From NCBI GenBank assembly GCA_937910235.1, contig CALENB010000329.1:1-64000 (forward strand): DNA of 64,000 nt, written 5' to 3'. Origin of the DNA: an uncultured Myxococcales bacterium. GTDB lineage: Bacteria; Myxococcota_A; UBA9042. Both the position numbers and the translations under genes were made by a program. Shown here in pieces: positions 50,451 to 60,066 of this stretch (position 1 is the stretch's first letter; each line of letters begins with the position of its first letter). The notes below the pieces were generated by a model. It saw only the letters and a program-made list of their open reading frames with translations. It ran no database searches and had not been told where the DNA came from.

Positions 50451-53400
50451 CTACCGCCGCAGCGCCACGGCTGTCGGCGACTGCAACGCGCCGTCGATCA
50501 ACGCCTGCACCGGCCCCTCATAGACGATAGTACCGCCCTTATCGCCGCCACCGGGCCCCAGATCGACCAGCCAATCCGCCTCCCGCAGCACGTCGAGGTT
50601 GTGTTCGATCACCACCACGGTATCGCCGCGATCCACCAGCTCGTGCAGCACGTCTAGCAGCTTGCGTTGGTCCGCCAAGTGCAGGCCCGTCGAGGGTTCA
50701 TCCAGCACATACAGCGTCTCGTGGCGGCGCTGCTTGGCGAGCTCGGCGCAGACCTTGATGCGCTGGGCCTCCCCGCCCGACAGGGTGTTGCTGCCTTGAC
50801 CGATGCGCAGATAACCGAGGCCGACCTTCTCCGCCAACGCCAGCGGCCGGTGCACCGTGCGCAAGCGCTGGAAGTGCGCCGCCGCCTCCGAGATGCTCAT
50901 GGCGAGCACGTCCGCGATGGTGGCGCCACGCAGCTGCACCCGCAGGGTTTGGCGGCTGTAGCGCGCGCCGCCGCACGTCTCACAAGGCACATACACCGTC
51001 GGTAGGAAGCTCATGTCGACCTTGATGACGCCCGCGCCCTGACACGTCTCGCAGCGGCCTCCTTTCACGTTGAACGAGAAATGCTTGGCTTTGAGGCCGA
51101 GGATCTTGGCTTCTGGCTGCGCGGCGAACTGTTTGCGGATGCCGTCCCACACCCCCAGATAGGTCGCCGGGCAGGATCGCGGCGTGCGGCCGATGGGGCT
51201 CTGATCGACCTCGACGACGCGGCCGAGGCCCTGCAAGCCCGTGATGTCCGCGATCTCGTCGTCCACGGTGATGGCCGCCGCGTCGCCGTGCACCAGCGGG
51301 CCGCCGACGCCGACCAGCAGGTCGCGGACCAGGGTCGATTTGCCTGAGCCGCTCACCCCCGAGATGCCGTTGAGCCGGCCACGCGCGATGGTCGCGTCGA
51401 CCCGACGCAGGTTGTTGCGTCGCGCGCCGCGCAAGCTGATCCGCGGAGAATCCGGCGTCACAGCGCGGGCCTCATGCCGCGAGCGCCGCAACGTCGGGTC
51501 GGCCAACATCCGACCGGTCGGCGAGTCGGGATCGGCGAGCAGGTCGGCCAAGGAGCCGGCGTGTAGCACCGCGCCGCCGAGCTCACCGCCACCGGGGCCG
51601 AGCTCCACGACGTGATCGGCGCGCCGGATCGTCTCTTCGTCGTGCTCGACGACGATGAGGCCGTTGCCCCGCGCGATGAGGTGATCAAAGGCCGCCAGCA
51701 GCCGCTGGTTGTCGGCGGGATGGAGCCCGATGGTCGGCTCGTCGAGCACGTATAAGACGCCACGCAGATTGGAGCTGAGCTGGCTGGCGAGCCGAATGCG
51801 CTGGCTCTCCCCGCCCGACAGGGTCACCGCGCTGCGGTCGAGGCTCAGGTAGTCGAGGCCGACGTCGAGCAGGAACGCGCACCGCGCCGCCACCTCTCGC
51901 ACGATGGGATCGGCGACAGCGGCGTCGCGGCTGCTCCACACCACCGCAGACAGAAACACCGTCAGCTGTTGCGGGTTCATCGCGCTCAGCTCGTGGATGC
52001 CTTTGCCGGCGACGGAGACCTCAAGCGCCTCGGACCGCAGCCGCGCGCCGTCACAGCTCGGGCACCACGCCAACCGCCGCCGCTCCTCCTGCTCGCCCTC
52101 GCGCAGCTCGCCCTCCTCCAACTCTTGCAGCGCGGCGGGTGTCTCGGCCTCCACCTTCGCCGCGCGCGCCGACTTGGGCCGACCCGCGATCGGCGTTGGT
52201 GTCTCGTCGGGCGCCATGCCCGAGCCCCGACAGTCTGGGCACCAGCCGCGCGTCGACGTGAAGCTAAACAGCAGCGGATCGAGGCCCGTCGCTCTGCGGC
52301 CCGTGGCGCTGCCGGCGGGATCGACCTCAAAACTGTGCACGCCGCTCGCCGCCGTGCGCACCCGCACCTGGCCGTCGCCTGCGTTCATGGCCGCGGTGAT
52401 GGCCGCCTCCAGCACCTCGGGGCGCCACTGGCCGGGGCGCCCCTGGACCATGTGCGTCATGGCTGGCTCAGGAGCGAGCACCACCAGCACATCGTCGATG
52501 TCGTGGGCGACGTAGCGGCGCAGCGGCGGCACGGCGGCGATGGGACACAGCGCGTCATCGATATGAATCCAGGTGCGCCCGGCGCGCTCGGCGCGCTCGA
52601 TGACGTCGCGATGAAAGCCCTTGCGGCCCCGCACCAGCGGCACCATGACGTAGAGCGGCGCGGTCGCCGGCAGCGCGGCGACCTGCAGCGCCACCTCCGC
52701 CGGTGTACGCACGGCCAGCGCGCCTTCGTGGGCGGCGGAGACCCGACCGCAGCGGGCGAACAGCAACCGCAGGTAGCTTTGGATGTCCGTCAGGGTGCCG
52801 ACGGTGGAGCGGCTGCCGCCGCGCGTGGTGCGCTGGGCGATGGCGATGGTCGGCGGCAGCCCGCGCAGGCTGTCGACATCGGGGCGGCTCACAGGCGGCA
52901 GATATTGGCGGGCGTAGGGCGACAAGCAGTCGAGGAAACGGCGCTGGCCTTCGGCGAAGACCACGTCAAAGGCGAGCGACGACTTGCCGGAGCCCGACAG
53001 CCCGGTGATCACCGTCAGCCCATCGCGCGGCAGATCGACGCTGATGTTGCGGAGGTTGTGCACCCTGGCGCCGCGCACCTCGACGTGGCCCGGGTCGTCC
53101 AAGGCCTCGGCGATGGCGAGGTTCGGCCGGGCTGCGATCGTCGCCGCTGGCGCTGTAGCCCCGTCCAGATGGGCCCGCAGCCACTGGCCGGTCGCCGTGG
53201 CGCCCAGCTCAGCGAGCCGTGCGGGCGGGCCCTGAAAGAGCAGCGATCCCCCGCCGGGGCCGCCTTCAGGTCCGAGCTCGACGACATGATCAGCGGCGGC
53301 GATCACGTCGAGGTGATGCTCAACCACCACCACGGTGTTGCCCGCCGCCACGAGCTTGCGCAGGCTGTTCAACAAGACCCGCACATCGTCGAGATGCAAC

Positions 53401-56108
53401 CCCGTGGACGGCTCATCGAGCAGGAACAAGGCCTGCTGCGTACGCTGGCAGAGCAGATGCCATGCGACTTTGAGGCGCTGGGACTCGCCGCCAGACAGCG
53501 TGCTGAGGGGCTGGCCAAGCCGCAGGTAGCCGAGCCCCAGCTCGCACATCGCCAGGGCCGGGCGGGCGAGCTTGCGGTCGTCGGCGAAACGCTCGGCGAT
53601 CTCGTGAGCTGTGGCGCTGAGGAAATCCGCGGCCGACATGCCGCGCACCTTCACATCGAGCACCTCGGGGCCAAAGCGGCGGCCTTCGCAGGCTTCGCAC
53701 GTGACCCGCACGTCCGAGAGGAACTGCATGTCGACGACCTCGAGCCCGGCGCCGTTGCAGACCGTGCAGCGACCGCCGGGCCGATTGAACGAGAACATCG
53801 ACGTGGTGTAGTCGCGTTCTTGCGCCAGCTCGGTCGCCGCCAAGCGCTGGCGCACGGCGTCCCAGAGCTTGAGGTAGGTCGCTGGGTTGGCGCGGCTGTT
53901 GCCGACCACGGCGGCTTGCTCGACGAGCACCACGTCATCGAGCCCGTCCGTGCCTTCGAGGCCACCAAACGCTCCCGGTGTCTCCGTGGGGCGGCCGAGT
54001 TGGCGCAGCATGGCGCGGTGCAGGACCTCCTCGACCAGCGTCGATTTGCCGGAGCCGCTGACGCCGCAGACCACGTTGAGCCGGCCGCGCTTGAAGCGCA
54101 CACGGCCGCCCTTGAGGTTGCGCGCCTGGGGTTCGATCACCGCCAGCCAGGGGCTCCCGGCGCCGAGCGTCGTCCGCTCGCGGTCGAGCAGGCGGGCCCG
54201 CTTGGCGATGGTGCGTGACATGTCGCGATCGGTCGCCGCCCGCTCGCGCAGCGCCTCGCCGTGCGCGAGCGGCGCCGGCGCAGTCTCGCGGACGTGGCGC
54301 CGGCCGAGGAGGTAGTCGGCCGTCAGGCTACCTGAGACGCCGGCGAGGTCCGCTGGCGGCCCGGAGAACAGCAGCTCGCCGCCGTGTTCACCCGCGCCCG
54401 GGCCAAGGTCGATGAGGTGATCGGCCGCGGCGATGAGCGCCGGATCGTGCTCGACCATGACCACGGTGTTCCCCGCCGCTTTGAGGCGACCGAGGATGCC
54501 AAGCAGCCGCTCGTTGTCGCGCGGATGCAGCCCGACGCTGGGTTCATCGAGCACGTACAGCACCGAGCTCAGCCCGCTCGAGAGGGCCGTCACAAGCTGC
54601 ACACGCTGTAGCTCACCGCCGGACAGGGTGCGACCCGGGCGTCCGAGCGTCAGGTAACCGAGGCCCAGCTCGCCAAGCAGCGCCACGCGGCGTGCCAACT
54701 CCGCGAGCGGACGCGCCGCCGCGCCACCGTCTGCCAGCCCAGCGATCCAGCCTTGCAGCACCTCGATGGGGGTCTGCAGCCACACGGGCAGCGCCGCGCC
54801 GGCGACCTGCCAACCGAGCGCCTCGGGCTGCAAGCGCGCGCCATCGCAGGCGGGACACGTCACATACTTGCGATACCGGCTCAGCAGCACCCGCACGTGC
54901 ATCCGGTAGGTGCGGGTCTCCAGCCACGCGAACCACTCCCGCAGCCCCCAAAATCGGGGCGCGCCGGGGAAGGCCGTGACGCGTTCGGGATCGTAGCCGT
55001 CCATCAGCCAGCCGCGCGTGGCTTCGCTTAGGTCGGCCCACGGCACCTGCTGATCGATCTCGGCGGCCTGGCAAAACGCGTCGAGCTGCTCTCGCTCCCA
55101 GGTGGTGCGCTCCGTCGTCCAGGGCTTGATGGCGCCGTCGGCCAAGCTCAGGCCCTCGTCGGGCAGACATCGGGCTTCGTCGAGCGCCATGATGCGACCA
55201 AAGCCGTTGCACGTCTCGCAGGCGCCGACCGGCGAGTTCCAGGAGAACAGGTTGGGCGATGGATCGGGGGTCTCGTGGTCACACGTCTCACAGCGCAGCG
55301 CCGATGACGCGCGGTGTCGAATGAGCGGCGCCGCCTTCTTGGCGCCGCGCGTTGGGGCGTCGGTCTCCGTCACCGCGTGGAGCCCCGTAGTCGCTGCGAG
55401 CGCGTCGCCCTCAAGCCACAGGTGCACCTCGCCGTCGCCGCGCCGCAGCGCTTCGTGCACCGATTCGAACAGCCGGTCGGCTTCGGTCGCGTCGATCTTC
55501 AGTCGGTCGACCAGCACGTCGACCGGCTCTCCGGGGGTGAACGTCTCCAGCGGCGCGACTCTCTGATCTTTCCATTGACGATGCAGCCCGGCCCGCGCCA
55601 GCTCCCGCAGCGCCAGCTCGCCACCGCTTCGGAGCTGCAGCGGAAAGGTGATCACCGCGCGCCGACCCGACGCGTGGTTGAGGAGGGCTTCCACCACCTG
55701 CACCGTCTGTAGTCGCGCCATGGGGCCGTGGCCATTGGGGCACGTCGGCAGCGCGGCGCTGGCGAAGACGACCTTGAGGTACTCCGAGATCTCCGTCAGC
55801 GTCGCCACGGTGCTACGCGCCGCGCGCAGCCGTTTGCCCTGCTCCAGCGCGACGGTGGGCAGGATCCCGGTGATCTCGTCTGCCTCAGGGCGGTCCATCC
55901 GCTCGAGAAACTGGCGCGCGTAGCTGCTCAGACACTCGACGTAGCGGCGCTGTCCCTCCGCGTAGAGCGTGTCGAACGCGAGCGAGCTCTTGCCGGAGCC
56001 GCTGACCCCGGTGATGACGGTGATCTGGCGGAGCGGGATGTCGAGGTCAAACCCGCGCAGGTTGTTCTGGCGTATCCCACGCAGGCGGATGACATCGGGC
56101 TCATTCAT
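50451..56108 (-). CDS. uvrA: Double-length UvrA-like excinuclease subunit (two UvrA units fused, four ABC ATPase cassettes)
   Basis: 1885 aa from ATG 56108; Walker A at four sites ([32 protein letters not shown]), repeated LSGGE signatures, UvrA CxxC zinc motifs ([16 protein letters not shown]). Confidence 0.9.
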
Positions 56109-56280
56109 GGGCGGGCTCCGCGGCAGGGTCGAGCGGGACCTGTCGAGCCCGCGGCGCAGTGTGCGGCGGCGGCAAAAAAAACCCAACATACGGCAAAAAA
56201 TCGGTCGCAAAAGCGCGCGTTTCGCCGTCAGAATGGCTCTCTCCAGCCATACGCTGTTGACAATAAAGCGTAAAACAAAA

Positions 56281-56320
56281 GTGACAGGTATGTGACAGAA
56301 ACGTGTTGACGGGGTGTCAC
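56281..56320 (+). promoter_or_regulatory. Phased GTGACA/GTGTCAC repeat elements overlapping the -35 (candidate operator)
   Basis: GTGACAG at 56281 and 56292, GTGTTGAC at 56303, GTGTCAC at 56314: 11-bp spacing. Confidence 0.5.
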
Positions 56321-56333
56321 AAAGCTGTATAGT
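56306..56333 (+). promoter_or_regulatory. Sigma70-type promoter: TTGACG - 16 bp - TATAGT
   Basis: TTGACG 56306-56311, TATAGT 56328-56333, A/T-rich upstream stretch (aataaagcgtaaaacaaaa). Confidence 0.75.
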
Positions 56334-56466
56334 CGCCCTCGTTGAACGGCACTAAGGAGCTGATCGCACTGAGGGTCCACAAGACGGCATTCCTTCGCGG
56401 AGCGCAAGTCGGGGACACAAACCTCAAGGGGGGAGGCAGCGCTCGAAAGAGGCAAGCCAACCCGCG

Positions 56467-56476
56467 GTTCTTTGAC
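56467..56476 (+). promoter_or_regulatory. rRNA-leader-like boxA (GTTCTTTGAC)
   Basis: gGTTCTTTGACactc resembles boxA elements in bacterial rRNA leaders. Confidence 0.5.
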
Positions 56477-58037
56477 ACTCTGCAGAGCAGGTACCAGACC
56501 GATACGCTAGTTGAGCGTGCTGTCTCCAGGGAGACGACTCTTCGGAGTCGACTTCAAGAAGTGGCATGAAGCAGCGAGCCGGACGGGCCAAGAGAGCGAG
56601 GTATCCGAAAGGGTGCTCCGAAGGAAGGTTCAGAAAGCGCGAATCGAGGGAAGTACCGAAACCCATGAGAGGAGGGGGCGGCGCGAGAGAGCGCGAGGCC
56701 GAGAGGAGGGAGTCATCGTCAAGCAATTGGCGGCGGGTCACAAATCGAAGCGCGTGTGAAGACGTGACGTCGCCGAGAAGAGCGGGGAGAAATCCTCGGA
56801 GAGGCGAAAGCCCAAGAGAGGAACGGGTGTTGGGAACCGGGTAATACCGGTCCGGCGCAACGGACCTTGCTGATGCATGAATCCTCAGGGCCCCAATTTG
56901 TCGACACGTATGGCGGTCGGCGGCAAAGACTGCGGCGACGCAGTTCGAGACGTCGGAGAGTTGTGCGGGGCGGCACGATTAAGGGCGAAGAGGGCAGGAT
57001 GCGCCGTGAGGCGTGGAAGGCTACAGCGAGGGGGAAACCTCTGAAGGGAGAAACCCCATGGACGCTTTCGGCATGAAATAGGGCTGAAAGGTGAAGAGCG
57101 GAATAAAGCGTCAAGAGGTTGAGAAAACCTGAAGGCGCAGCGGAGCTGGGCGAGGTAAACCCAGTGTAAGTCGCTGCTTTTCACTGATGGCGTCGAAGGG
57201 GCACCAAAGCCTAAGAGTGTGTGGTTACGGATCGACTGGGAGGAAGTCTGAGCGGCGTTGAAAGCGGGGTTAAAGCCGCGGAAGAGGCCGGTTGGGTGGA
57301 GTCGCTAGGTCTGAAAAGGTAGTGAGCGCGAGGAAAGCGAAGGGGGAAGCAGGGGAGCGGCCGAGAGGTTGTGAAGCTACGGAAACCAAGCAGAACACGC
57401 GTGGGACAGGGCGAACCGCTTGCGGGGAGTCGTGAACGCAGTCGCTGCGCGGACAGGTCGAAGTGGAAGCTTGGGGCGAGAGTCACAGGTGAAAGCGTCG
57501 AGGTGGAGAGTTGGACGTGTAAGCGGACGGCAGGAAGCTCCAGGGCGGAGAAGTGGAAGAGGTGGCGTTGAGGGTCAGCACCGCGAGGTGGGGGCAGGAG
57601 ATGGCGCTGATGAAGCGGACTACAGGGGATGACGTAGCGGAATCGTCGAGGATAGACGCTGAACGCAAGCTGAAGGAACAAGAGTGGATGCCGAGGCTGA
57701 GTTGATTAGTCTCGGCAAGCCGGAGGGTGAGTACCGCGAAGGTCGGGAATGTGAAGGTTGTGCCCGCAAGGGTTGAGCTGGAGCGTGACTAAGGCCATGG
57801 CGGGTATACGAAACCAATGACGTACCAGGTCTCCGGTCTGAAGACGCTGAAGTTTATGGTAATGCGAGGAGTGGATACGCCGCAGGTGGTGACACAGGCG
57901 CGCGCAACTCGATGACGAAGAGTTCATGAAGGGCCAGTTGGCGCTAAGGGGAGACCCGAGGTGCAGGCTGCCCGAGTGAAGACACACGCTGAAAGGCGCA
58001 ACTCATGGGCGGTCAGTTCTGCCAGACAACCGGAGAG

Positions 58038-58068
58038 ACCCGGATCGCGCAAGCGGTCCGGGTTTTTT
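58038..58068 (+). terminator. Intrinsic terminator with GCAA tetraloop
   Basis: ACCCGGATCGC-GCAA-GCGGTCCGGGT followed by T-run (TTTTTT): 11-bp stem including one G-T pair. Confidence 0.93.
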
Positions 58069-58120
58069 CGTTTTGCGGCCGCTGGGTCTCGGTTGCGTCG
58101 TCGGCTGCGCCCAGCGTCCA

Positions 58121-58159
58121 GCGCGCCTTGTGCGCGGCGCGCCTTGTGCGCGGCGCGCC
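58121..58159. repeat. 16-bp tandem repeat GCGCGCCTTGTGCGCG, ~2.4 copies
   Basis: Read directly between the terminator and the next CDS. Confidence 0.9.
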
Positions 58160-58215: not shown

Positions 58216-60066
58216 ATGAGGAGCCCTCGGTCCACAACTCGCTGCGTCGCCTTCCCCGTGACTCGACTACCCCTTGGTCTGGTGCTGGTCGTGATCTTGG
58301 GCCTGACCGCGTGCGCCCAGCGCCGGGACGTTGCGACAGCGCGGCCGGTCGTTGCGACGCCGGCTGACGCTGGTCCGGCGGGCGTCGTCGCACCCTCAGC
58401 CGTGCCCATCGCCGCTCGCCGGTCCGTCCGGGTGCTCGCTGCGACGCCGATTTTTCAGCTCGATCGCGTGGTCGACGTGAAGCTGGAGCTCGACGCGCAG
58501 GCGCTCGCCTCCCTGCGTAACCAGCCGCGAGTGTATACCCGCGCGACGGTCACGGTGGATGGCGAGCGCATGATCGAGGTCGGCGTGCGGCTCAAGGGGC
58601 ACCGCTCGTTTCGGGACCTGGGTGACCGACCGTCGTACCTGCTCGATTTTAAGCGCTTCTCACCCAAGCGGCGTCTGCACGGCCTGCGCAAGCTGGTGCT
58701 CAACAGCATGGTTGAAGATCCCACCCTGGTCCGCGAGGTGTTGGGCTACGAGCTCTTCCGCAAGGCAGGGGTGACCGCGCCGCGGACGGGGTACGTGCGC
58801 GTCACCGTCAACGGCAAACATCCGCAGCTCTACTTGGCGGTGGAGCCCATCGACAAGACGTTTCTGACGCACCGCTACGCTAACCCGAAAGGCAACCTCT
58901 ACGAAGGTGAGTACGGCTGCGACGTGAACCGGGAGGACGTGTGGGGTTTTGACCTGGACGCGGGCCGCGACACCAGCCGCGCCGATTTCAAGGCCCTCGC
59001 GGCGCTGATGCCGCGCGGCGTGACGGTCGTGTTTGGCGATGGTCCCGGCGGCGTGGACCGCGAGCAGGTGTTGGCGTTCTTGGCGATGAGCGTCGTGGTC
59101 GGTGATTTTGACGGCTATGAGCACCACCACAACTACTTCCTGTATCACGAGCCGTCGCGCGATCGCTGGTCGATGATGCCGTGGGGGATCGACCGCGCGT
59201 TCTTTGATGACGTGAAGCCCTACGCCTGCGAGGGGCTGATCGCGCGGATGTGTTTTGCGGACCGCGCGTGCCGGGTCGCCTACGTCGCTCAGCTTCGCAG
59301 CGCTGTGGGGCTGCTGGAGGCGGCGAATCTGCCGGAGCGTGTGAGCGCGATCGACGCCTTGATCGGCAGCGTCGTCGCGGCGGACACCCATCCGCCCCGC
59401 GCCGCCAAGAAGCGGCGGAAAAAGCGGGCTGAGCTGCTGCGATTTGTGCGTGGCCGCGCCAAGCAGCTCGCCAAGTGGACCGATTGCCTGCGCGGCGGGA
59501 AGGAGCGCGATCAGGATGGCGACGGCTACGGTTGCATGGACTGCGACGACCAGAACCCTGCGGTTCATCCGGGCGCGGCGGAGGTCTGCGACGGCGTCGA
59601 CAACAACTGCTCAGGGCAGGTCGATGATGCCCCGCAGTGCCCCTGCACGGTGAGTCAGATCGACGGCGTGCGGTTTGAGTTGTGCGACCTGCCGATGCCC
59701 TGGCTTGAGGCGGCGCGCTACTGCAAGGCCAAAGGCATGCACCTCGCGCGGGTCGACTCCAAAGCGCAGAGCAAGGCGCTGTATCAGGCCGGGCGGCGGG
59801 TGCGAAAGACACAGTGGTGGCTTGGGCTCAACGACCGGCAGGCGGAGGACCAGCATGTGTGGGACGACGGCACGAAGGTTGGCTTCACCCACTGGAAGAG
59901 CGGCGAGCCCAGTGACATGGCGTGCGGCGAGGACTGCGTCGCGCTCGCCAAACGGGCCAAGGGCAAGTGGTATGACAGCCATTGTGGGCTGCATCGGGCC
60001 TTCATCTGTCGGGCGCCAGACGCGGCCGCGGCGACGCCGGCGCAGCTCGTGGCCCCAGGCAAGTAG
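58216..60066 (+). CDS. Lipoprotein chimera: CotH-kinase-like domain + MopE repeat + C-type lectin-like domain
   Basis: 'VRLKGHRSFRDLGDRPSYLLDFKRF...LVLNSMVEDPTLVREVLGYELFRKAGV' (CotH); 'DGYGCMDCDDQNPAVHPGAAEVCDGVDNNCSG' (MopE); 'WWLGLNDRQAEDQHVWDDGTKVGFTHWKSGEPSDM..EDCVAL..GKWYDSHCGLHRAFICR' (CTL). Confidence 0.88.
   Translation: MRSPRSTTRCVAFPVTRLPLGLVLVVILGLTACAQRRDVATARPVVATPADAGPAGVVAPSAVPIAARRSVRVLAATPIFQLDRVVDVKLELDAQALASLRNQPRVYTRATVTVDGERMIEVGVRLKGHRSFRDLGDRPSYLLDFKRFSPKRRLHGLRKLVLNSMVEDPTLVREVLGYELFRKAGVTAPRTGYVRVTVNGKHPQLYLAVEPIDKTFLTHRYANPKGNLYEGEYGCDVNREDVWGFDLDAGRDTSRADFKALAALMPRGVTVVFGDGPGGVDREQVLAFLAMSVVVGDFDGYEHHHNYFLYHEPSRDRWSMMPWGIDRAFFDDVKPYACEGLIARMCFADRACRVAYVAQLRSAVGLLEAANLPERVSAIDALIGSVVAADTHPPRAAKKRRKKRAELLRFVRGRAKQLAKWTDCLRGGKERDQDGDGYGCMDCDDQNPAVHPGAAEVCDGVDNNCSGQVDDAPQCPCTVSQIDGVRFELCDLPMPWLEAARYCKAKGMHLARVDSKAQSKALYQAGRRVRKTQWWLGLNDRQAEDQHVWDDGTKVGFTHWKSGEPSDMACGEDCVALAKRAKGKWYDSHCGLHRAFICRAPDAAAATPAQLVAPGK

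Follow-up and report, generated by a model that had tools for sequence, protein, structure and literature searches.

What is encoded in a 2.0-kb gap that holds no plausible gene, between the genes for UvrA and a CotH-domain protein, in the genome of an uncultured Myxococcales bacterium? We addressed this question in a stretch of 64,000 nucleotides (contig CALENB010000329.1; hereafter the window), for which a preliminary description had proposed a giant structured noncoding RNA.

An RNA gene with a predicted promoter and terminator

On the plus strand, a sigma-70-type promoter lies at 56306–56333 (TTGACG at 56306–56311, a 16-nt spacer and TATAGT at 56328–56333), with the predicted start site at about 56340, just past the -10 box. 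Some 1.7 kb past this promoter, a strong intrinsic terminator is formed on the same strand by a 16-bp hairpin with an adjoining U-tract (58033–58068). The whole RNA gene, 56340–58068 on the plus strand, is about 1.73 kb long. A sigma-70-type promoter at the corresponding distance is also found in a homologue from the same genus (L031) and in most copies belonging to the f5 family. Purines make up 64% of the plus strand of the RNA gene, more than in any other 1.7-kb stretch of the window. Both halves of the RNA fold better than dinucleotide shuffles (z of -2.8 and -4.2), and the minimum free energy (MFE) of the sense strand is -677 kcal/mol versus -501 for the antisense strand. The left neighbor, at 50451–56210 on the minus strand, is a divergent, double-length UvrA of 1919 aa. 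The preliminary description had placed the RNA at 56340–58068, and these borders were very good, beginning after the -10 box and finishing on the U-tract; the promoter on the left, the terminator on the right, the divergent fused uvrA and the purine-rich plus strand were likewise all recovered.

Other features of the surroundings are as follows. L031 carries a 1948-aa reading frame at the place equivalent to the double-length UvrA, and the arrangement of RNA and UvrA seems to be conserved within the genus. The right neighbor (58216–60066, plus strand) is a predicted lipoprotein that contains a CotH kinase-like domain (PF08757); next come a stretch rich in cysteine and aspartate and a C-terminal region resembling a lectin. 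Immediately past the terminator, at 58118–58152, there is a short direct repeat, gcgcgccttgtgcgcg.

We then considered coding potential. Each sense frame of 56340–58068 contains 18 to 27 stops, with longest open stretches of 85–109 codons. L031 is 68% identical to the window RNA over 1677 aligned sites, and 17 of the 19 indels that separate the two are not multiples of three. When 11 ORFs were tested against L031, nine had stops in the orthologous frame and the remaining two had frame-breaking length changes, so that no conserved open frame was found between the two copies, consistent with the earlier claim that no plausible coding sequence occupies the ~1.7 kb. The locus could instead be a protein gene that has decayed, or else a long untranslated leader, and short ORFs on the minus strand do reach 156 aa. 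Against this, indels are blind to frame, most ORFs are broken in homologues and the homologues covary (see below); as for a leader, the terminator precedes the next gene and neighbors lie on either strand. Already contradicted by the covariation and by the indel and ORF comparison, this alternative is extremely improbable. At the level of sequence, these results show that 56340–58068 has its own promoter and terminator and lacks coding capacity.

Homologues and gene neighborhoods in Myxococcota

A blastn search, which the preliminary description had suggested, found collinear pieces of the window RNA in 20 of 90 related genomes. The most conserved block of primary sequence, module A (56403–56501, plus strand; CTCGRAAGAGG...TTCTTTGAMACTYTGNAG), forms the 5' part of domain I. 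Its exact pattern matched 19 GTDB stretches; the metagenome-assembled genomes that contain them almost all bear the title Myxococcota, Myxococcales or Deltaproteobacteria, with one labeled Oligoflexales. For more sensitive searches we used a covariance model, R1, of the best-conserved part of the RNA (57031–57177, plus strand, 147 positions). In scans that covered Myxococcota genomes only, R1 matched 30 of the 52 genomes of the window's class. Of the 379 Myxococcota genomes sampled it matched 76, with 59 scoring at least 46 bits, spread over about 20 families; E-values of these searches are rough, and any match that scores under about 40 bits is doubtful. The R1 search found between one and six copies per genome, and a single copy in the window's own genome.

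Several matches deserve separate mention. The 35.6-bit match L139 is probably false, since it overlaps a called gene; it and the other weakest matches should be left out of the count. Genome G055 carries six divergent copies (L130 and L140–L144), each next to different genes. Weak matches of 35–41 bits occur in genus g6 (L108, L109, L112, L113 and L115) and at L110 and L111; matches of this type keep the CCCC motif and the first hairpin, have lost the remaining core and sit in purine-rich gaps of 1.4–3.7 kb. They may be a reduced version of the RNA or one that has diverged strongly.

R1 matches fall in intergenic gaps, typically of 1.0–1.7 kb, and terminators are strong and at constant distance within lineages. 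No Pfam family recurs in more than three of the 121 proteins that flank the matches. The lack of a recurrent flanking family makes a cis-regulatory leader or a linked enzyme unlikely, and the varying gene neighbors likewise indicate that the RNA is not a cis-regulatory leader. Two tRNA genes lie on the minus strand a few kb from the RNA at L043 and L050 (approximately positions 890–1270); tRNAs near the RNA are confined to this pair and are not general to the family.

All-against-all comparison showed that f5-family copies have more than 1 kb in common at about 70% identity. Furthermore, the paralogues of genomes G049 and G040 pair up between genomes, L043 with L050 at 90% identity and L042 with L049 at 82%, and are therefore old and vertically inherited. 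Such old copies, retained together in one genome, suggest paralogous variants with separate roles. Several genomes are multicopy and the distribution is patchy, as might be expected of a piece of a selfish or mobile element, such as a non-autonomous intron, a satellite or a guide RNA of a transposon-related nuclease. This origin is very unlikely: no common nuclease, transposase or reverse transcriptase adjoins the RNA, searches of viral contigs and of plasmid and phage collections returned no match to the RNA family, the paralogues are orthologous between genomes, which points to vertical descent, and the RNA has its own promoter and terminator.

Covariation of the conserved core

In 78 aligned copies, 94.2% of the cells at the 21 pairs of R1 hold standard pairs, and all 21 pairs show two-sided changes. 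Two-sided cells numbered 419, against a shuffled mean of 137, and control pairings slid along the alignment were at most 43% paired compared with 94% in place. The 78-copy alignment was fitted to the R1 model and is hence biased in its favor; in an earlier, structure-free MAFFT alignment of 19 sequences, 14 of the 21 pairs had two-sided changes. Covariation thus exceeds both shuffled and slid controls, as in a conserved class of structured noncoding RNA.

The core corresponds to domain III (57054–57201, plus strand), which is closed by CCCC-AUG-GACGCU and GGCGUC-GAA-GGGG around a 3x3 internal loop. This closing helix extends partly beyond R1; it was recovered independently in many families, its offset nearly constant. 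Across families it comprises 4 bp, a 3x3 loop and another 4 bp with covarying pairs, and its variants include CCCC/GGGG, GCCC/GGGC, ACCC/GGGT, TCCT/AGGA and CCTC/GAGG. Unpaired nucleotides of the core loops are highly conserved over about 20 families. Judged by these comparisons, a homologous covarying structure is shown to span about 20 families of the phylum.

Full-length architecture

Beyond the R1 core, structure was derived from one family, f5, using RNAalifold and a filter on a full-length alignment of 12 related copies whose RNAs are 1.1–1.25 kb long. This yielded 231 pairs in 45 helices, of which 106 pairs have two-sided changes. The two ends are joined by a helix, formed by UGGACCUGGAAA and UUUCCAGGUCCA in one copy and by UGGUUCGGAGAC and GUCUCCGAACCA in a second, and about four large domains lie between its arms. 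Each domain is closed alike, by a 4-bp pyrimidine/purine helix, a 3x3 internal loop rich in purines and a second helix of 5–6 bp. In the window, the corresponding duplex, P1, would pair a 5' arm at 56357–56367 (GAGCTGATCGC) with a 3' arm at 58009–58019 (GCGGTCAGTTC), both on the plus strand, as predicted in the unconstrained MFE structure of the full transcript. The helix equivalent to P1 covaries in f5 homologues, and in almost every f5 copy tested the duplex outscores shuffles, P1 being less clear in some members such as L037 and L040. Taken together, the f5 alignment shows, for this one family, a predicted end-closing helix around about four large domains.

Two further domains can be placed in the window copy. 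By analogy with f5, domain II would occupy 56662–57048 on the plus strand, where CCC-AUG-AGAGG ... CCUCU-GAA-GGG resembles the closing motif. Domain IV (57209–57997, plus strand) is predicted from the MFE structure to be closed by GCCU-AAG-AGUGUGUG and CACACGCU-GAA-AGGC; its arms, 57209–57223 and 57983–57997, show compensatory changes in L031 and L032. The extra length of the RNA in the window's genus lies in domain IV.

Two classes of promoter

Other lineages carry a different promoter. When five copies from other families were aligned, TGGCAC-N5-TGC, a sigma-54 -24/-12 element, was invariant. Over equal lengths and all copies, sigma-54 sites were found 22 times upstream in the sense orientation, once antisense and once downstream. 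Sites that are near-perfect precede the R1 match by about 430–1000 nt in L104, L105, L106, L124, L126, L128, L132, L145, L146, L151 and L155, among others. L104, L105 and L106 belong to the window's own class. Sigma-70-type promoters thus characterize the window's genus and most f5 copies, whereas sigma-54 sites occur in several other Myxococcota families, which amounts to a switch of promoter class within one RNA family. Transcription from sigma-54 promoters requires a signal-responsive activator. This suggests that transcription is signal-dependent in the sigma-54 lineages, and it is because of this requirement that we infer a condition-specific transcript.

Comparison with known RNAs

Rfam 15 models searched with cmscan at gathering scores found nothing in the whole window. 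At E<=10 the RNA gene had a single, chance match, BASRCI408 on the terminator hairpin, and at E<=1 eight homologous loci had none that was credible, a match to sX5 on the opposite strand in L042 being due to chance. Models of rRNA, RNase P, tmRNA and group I and II introns did not match the window RNA; the genome's own RNase P is located elsewhere (G000:C522), and a search of the draft genome returned no 23S. The open-access literature that we searched held no description of a large Myxococcota RNA. Of the remaining claims in the preliminary description, the absence of rRNA, RNase P, tmRNA and intron signatures agrees with the Rfam search that it proposed, and a structured RNA is borne out by folding better than shuffles and by strong covariation in homologues, with two-sided changes at every R1 pair; no conserved protein frame emerged from the comparison with L031. 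Its suggestion of an undescribed class of large ornate RNA is supported within the limits of Rfam 15 and of the open-access papers that we searched.

Could the RNA be a large ribozyme or RNP enzyme, with catalysis in the domain III core and the GAAACA and GAGAAA loops and the rest serving as scaffold? Known large ribozymes are comparable in size and multi-domain layout, and the high conservation of unpaired core-loop nucleotides in about 20 families would fit this reading. We nevertheless consider this unlikely, as there is no Rfam ribozyme or intron match and no evidence of cleavage, and RNase P is encoded elsewhere in the genome.

We compared the RNA with the giant bacterial RNAs OLE, ROOL and GOLLD, whose Rfam 15 covariance models did not match it. 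OLE is an ornate, large, extremophilic RNA of about 600 nt from Bacillota. Like OLE, the Myxococcota RNA is large, chromosomal and highly structured, with long stacked helices, a probable action in trans and an incompletely known function. Unlike OLE, it measures 1.0–1.7 kb and has no constant neighbor gene; neither a linked OapA gene nor an L7Ae-type kink-turn protein was found, L7Ae (PF01248) being present in none of the 52 class genomes. In OLE, a kink turn is bound by OapC (PMC9723947). ROOL is similar in being a large single-RNA gene without a known protein partner, but it is about 0.6–0.7 kb long and sits near tRNA islands (PMC12286853), whereas the Myxococcota RNA is chromosomal, with varying neighbors and no phage or plasmid matches. 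GOLLD, at more than 800 nt (PMC12286853), is nearest in size and has an ornate multi-domain fold, but it is encoded by prophages and phages, often near tRNAs, and no copy of the Myxococcota RNA turned up in the viral and phage collections that we searched. The neighbors of the RNA are varied cellular genes, not the phage, prophage or plasmid setting near tRNA islands of ROOL and GOLLD. OLE, ROOL and GOLLD form homo-oligomers as seen by cryo-EM (PMC12286853). The raiA motif and other large RNAs of Rfam are similar as candidate structured bacterial noncoding RNAs from comparative genomics, but they show no similarity to the window at E<=10 and none that is credible in the eight loci at E<=1. The RNA resembles OLE, ROOL and GOLLD in size, elaboration and independence but is a member of none of the three, because their Rfam models are unmatched and it does not share the mobile-element setting of ROOL and GOLLD. 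The class looks new: no family matches it, though a descriptive bin of "large ornate RNA" exists.

Interpretation

In our judgment the window most probably encodes, in a stand-alone gene, a giant structured RNA that acts in trans and belongs to a Myxococcota-wide family without a catalogued relative. The gene is presumably transcribed. The most likely reading is a condition-regulated structural RNA that acts in trans, either by itself or as part of an RNP, much as OLE, ROOL and GOLLD do. Its transcript would be made under particular conditions, its rod-like domains would stack into a compact multi-domain particle, and the RNA would act as a scaffold or container, either unaided or together with a protein whose gene lies elsewhere; this particle or scaffold role is suggested by analogy with the known giant RNAs.

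A repeated closing motif could also mark binding sites, in which case the RNA would sequester an RNA-binding regulator or RNA polymerase. One closing motif does recur in every domain, promoters are regulated and there are several copies per genome. For CsrA, the standard target of such sponges, the idea is ruled against by the unenriched GGA in the RNA and by the presence of CsrA in just 4 of the 52 class genomes (it is missing from the other 48, including the window's). Moreover, Ro60/TROVE occurs in only 1 of the 52 and L7Ae is lacking throughout, and the complex conserved tertiary-like motifs are atypical of sponges. We rate sequestration as slightly less likely still than catalysis.

A broader version of the trans-acting structural RNA, in which giant RNAs throughout the phylum are activated by sigma-54 in several lineages, form RNA or RNP particles and exist in paralogous versions within a cell, is put forward only tentatively. 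To our knowledge, only a handful of very large structured noncoding RNAs are known in bacteria, mostly of unknown function and several from phages. The Myxococcota RNA is larger than most of these, and its family is chromosomal, multicopy, vertically inherited where tested and found across a phylum known for complex behavior. Its regulated promoter offers a direct experimental way into its function. If the broader version is true, Myxococcota would possess a regulated, RNA-built cellular structure specific to the phylum, triggered for example by starvation, development or stress.
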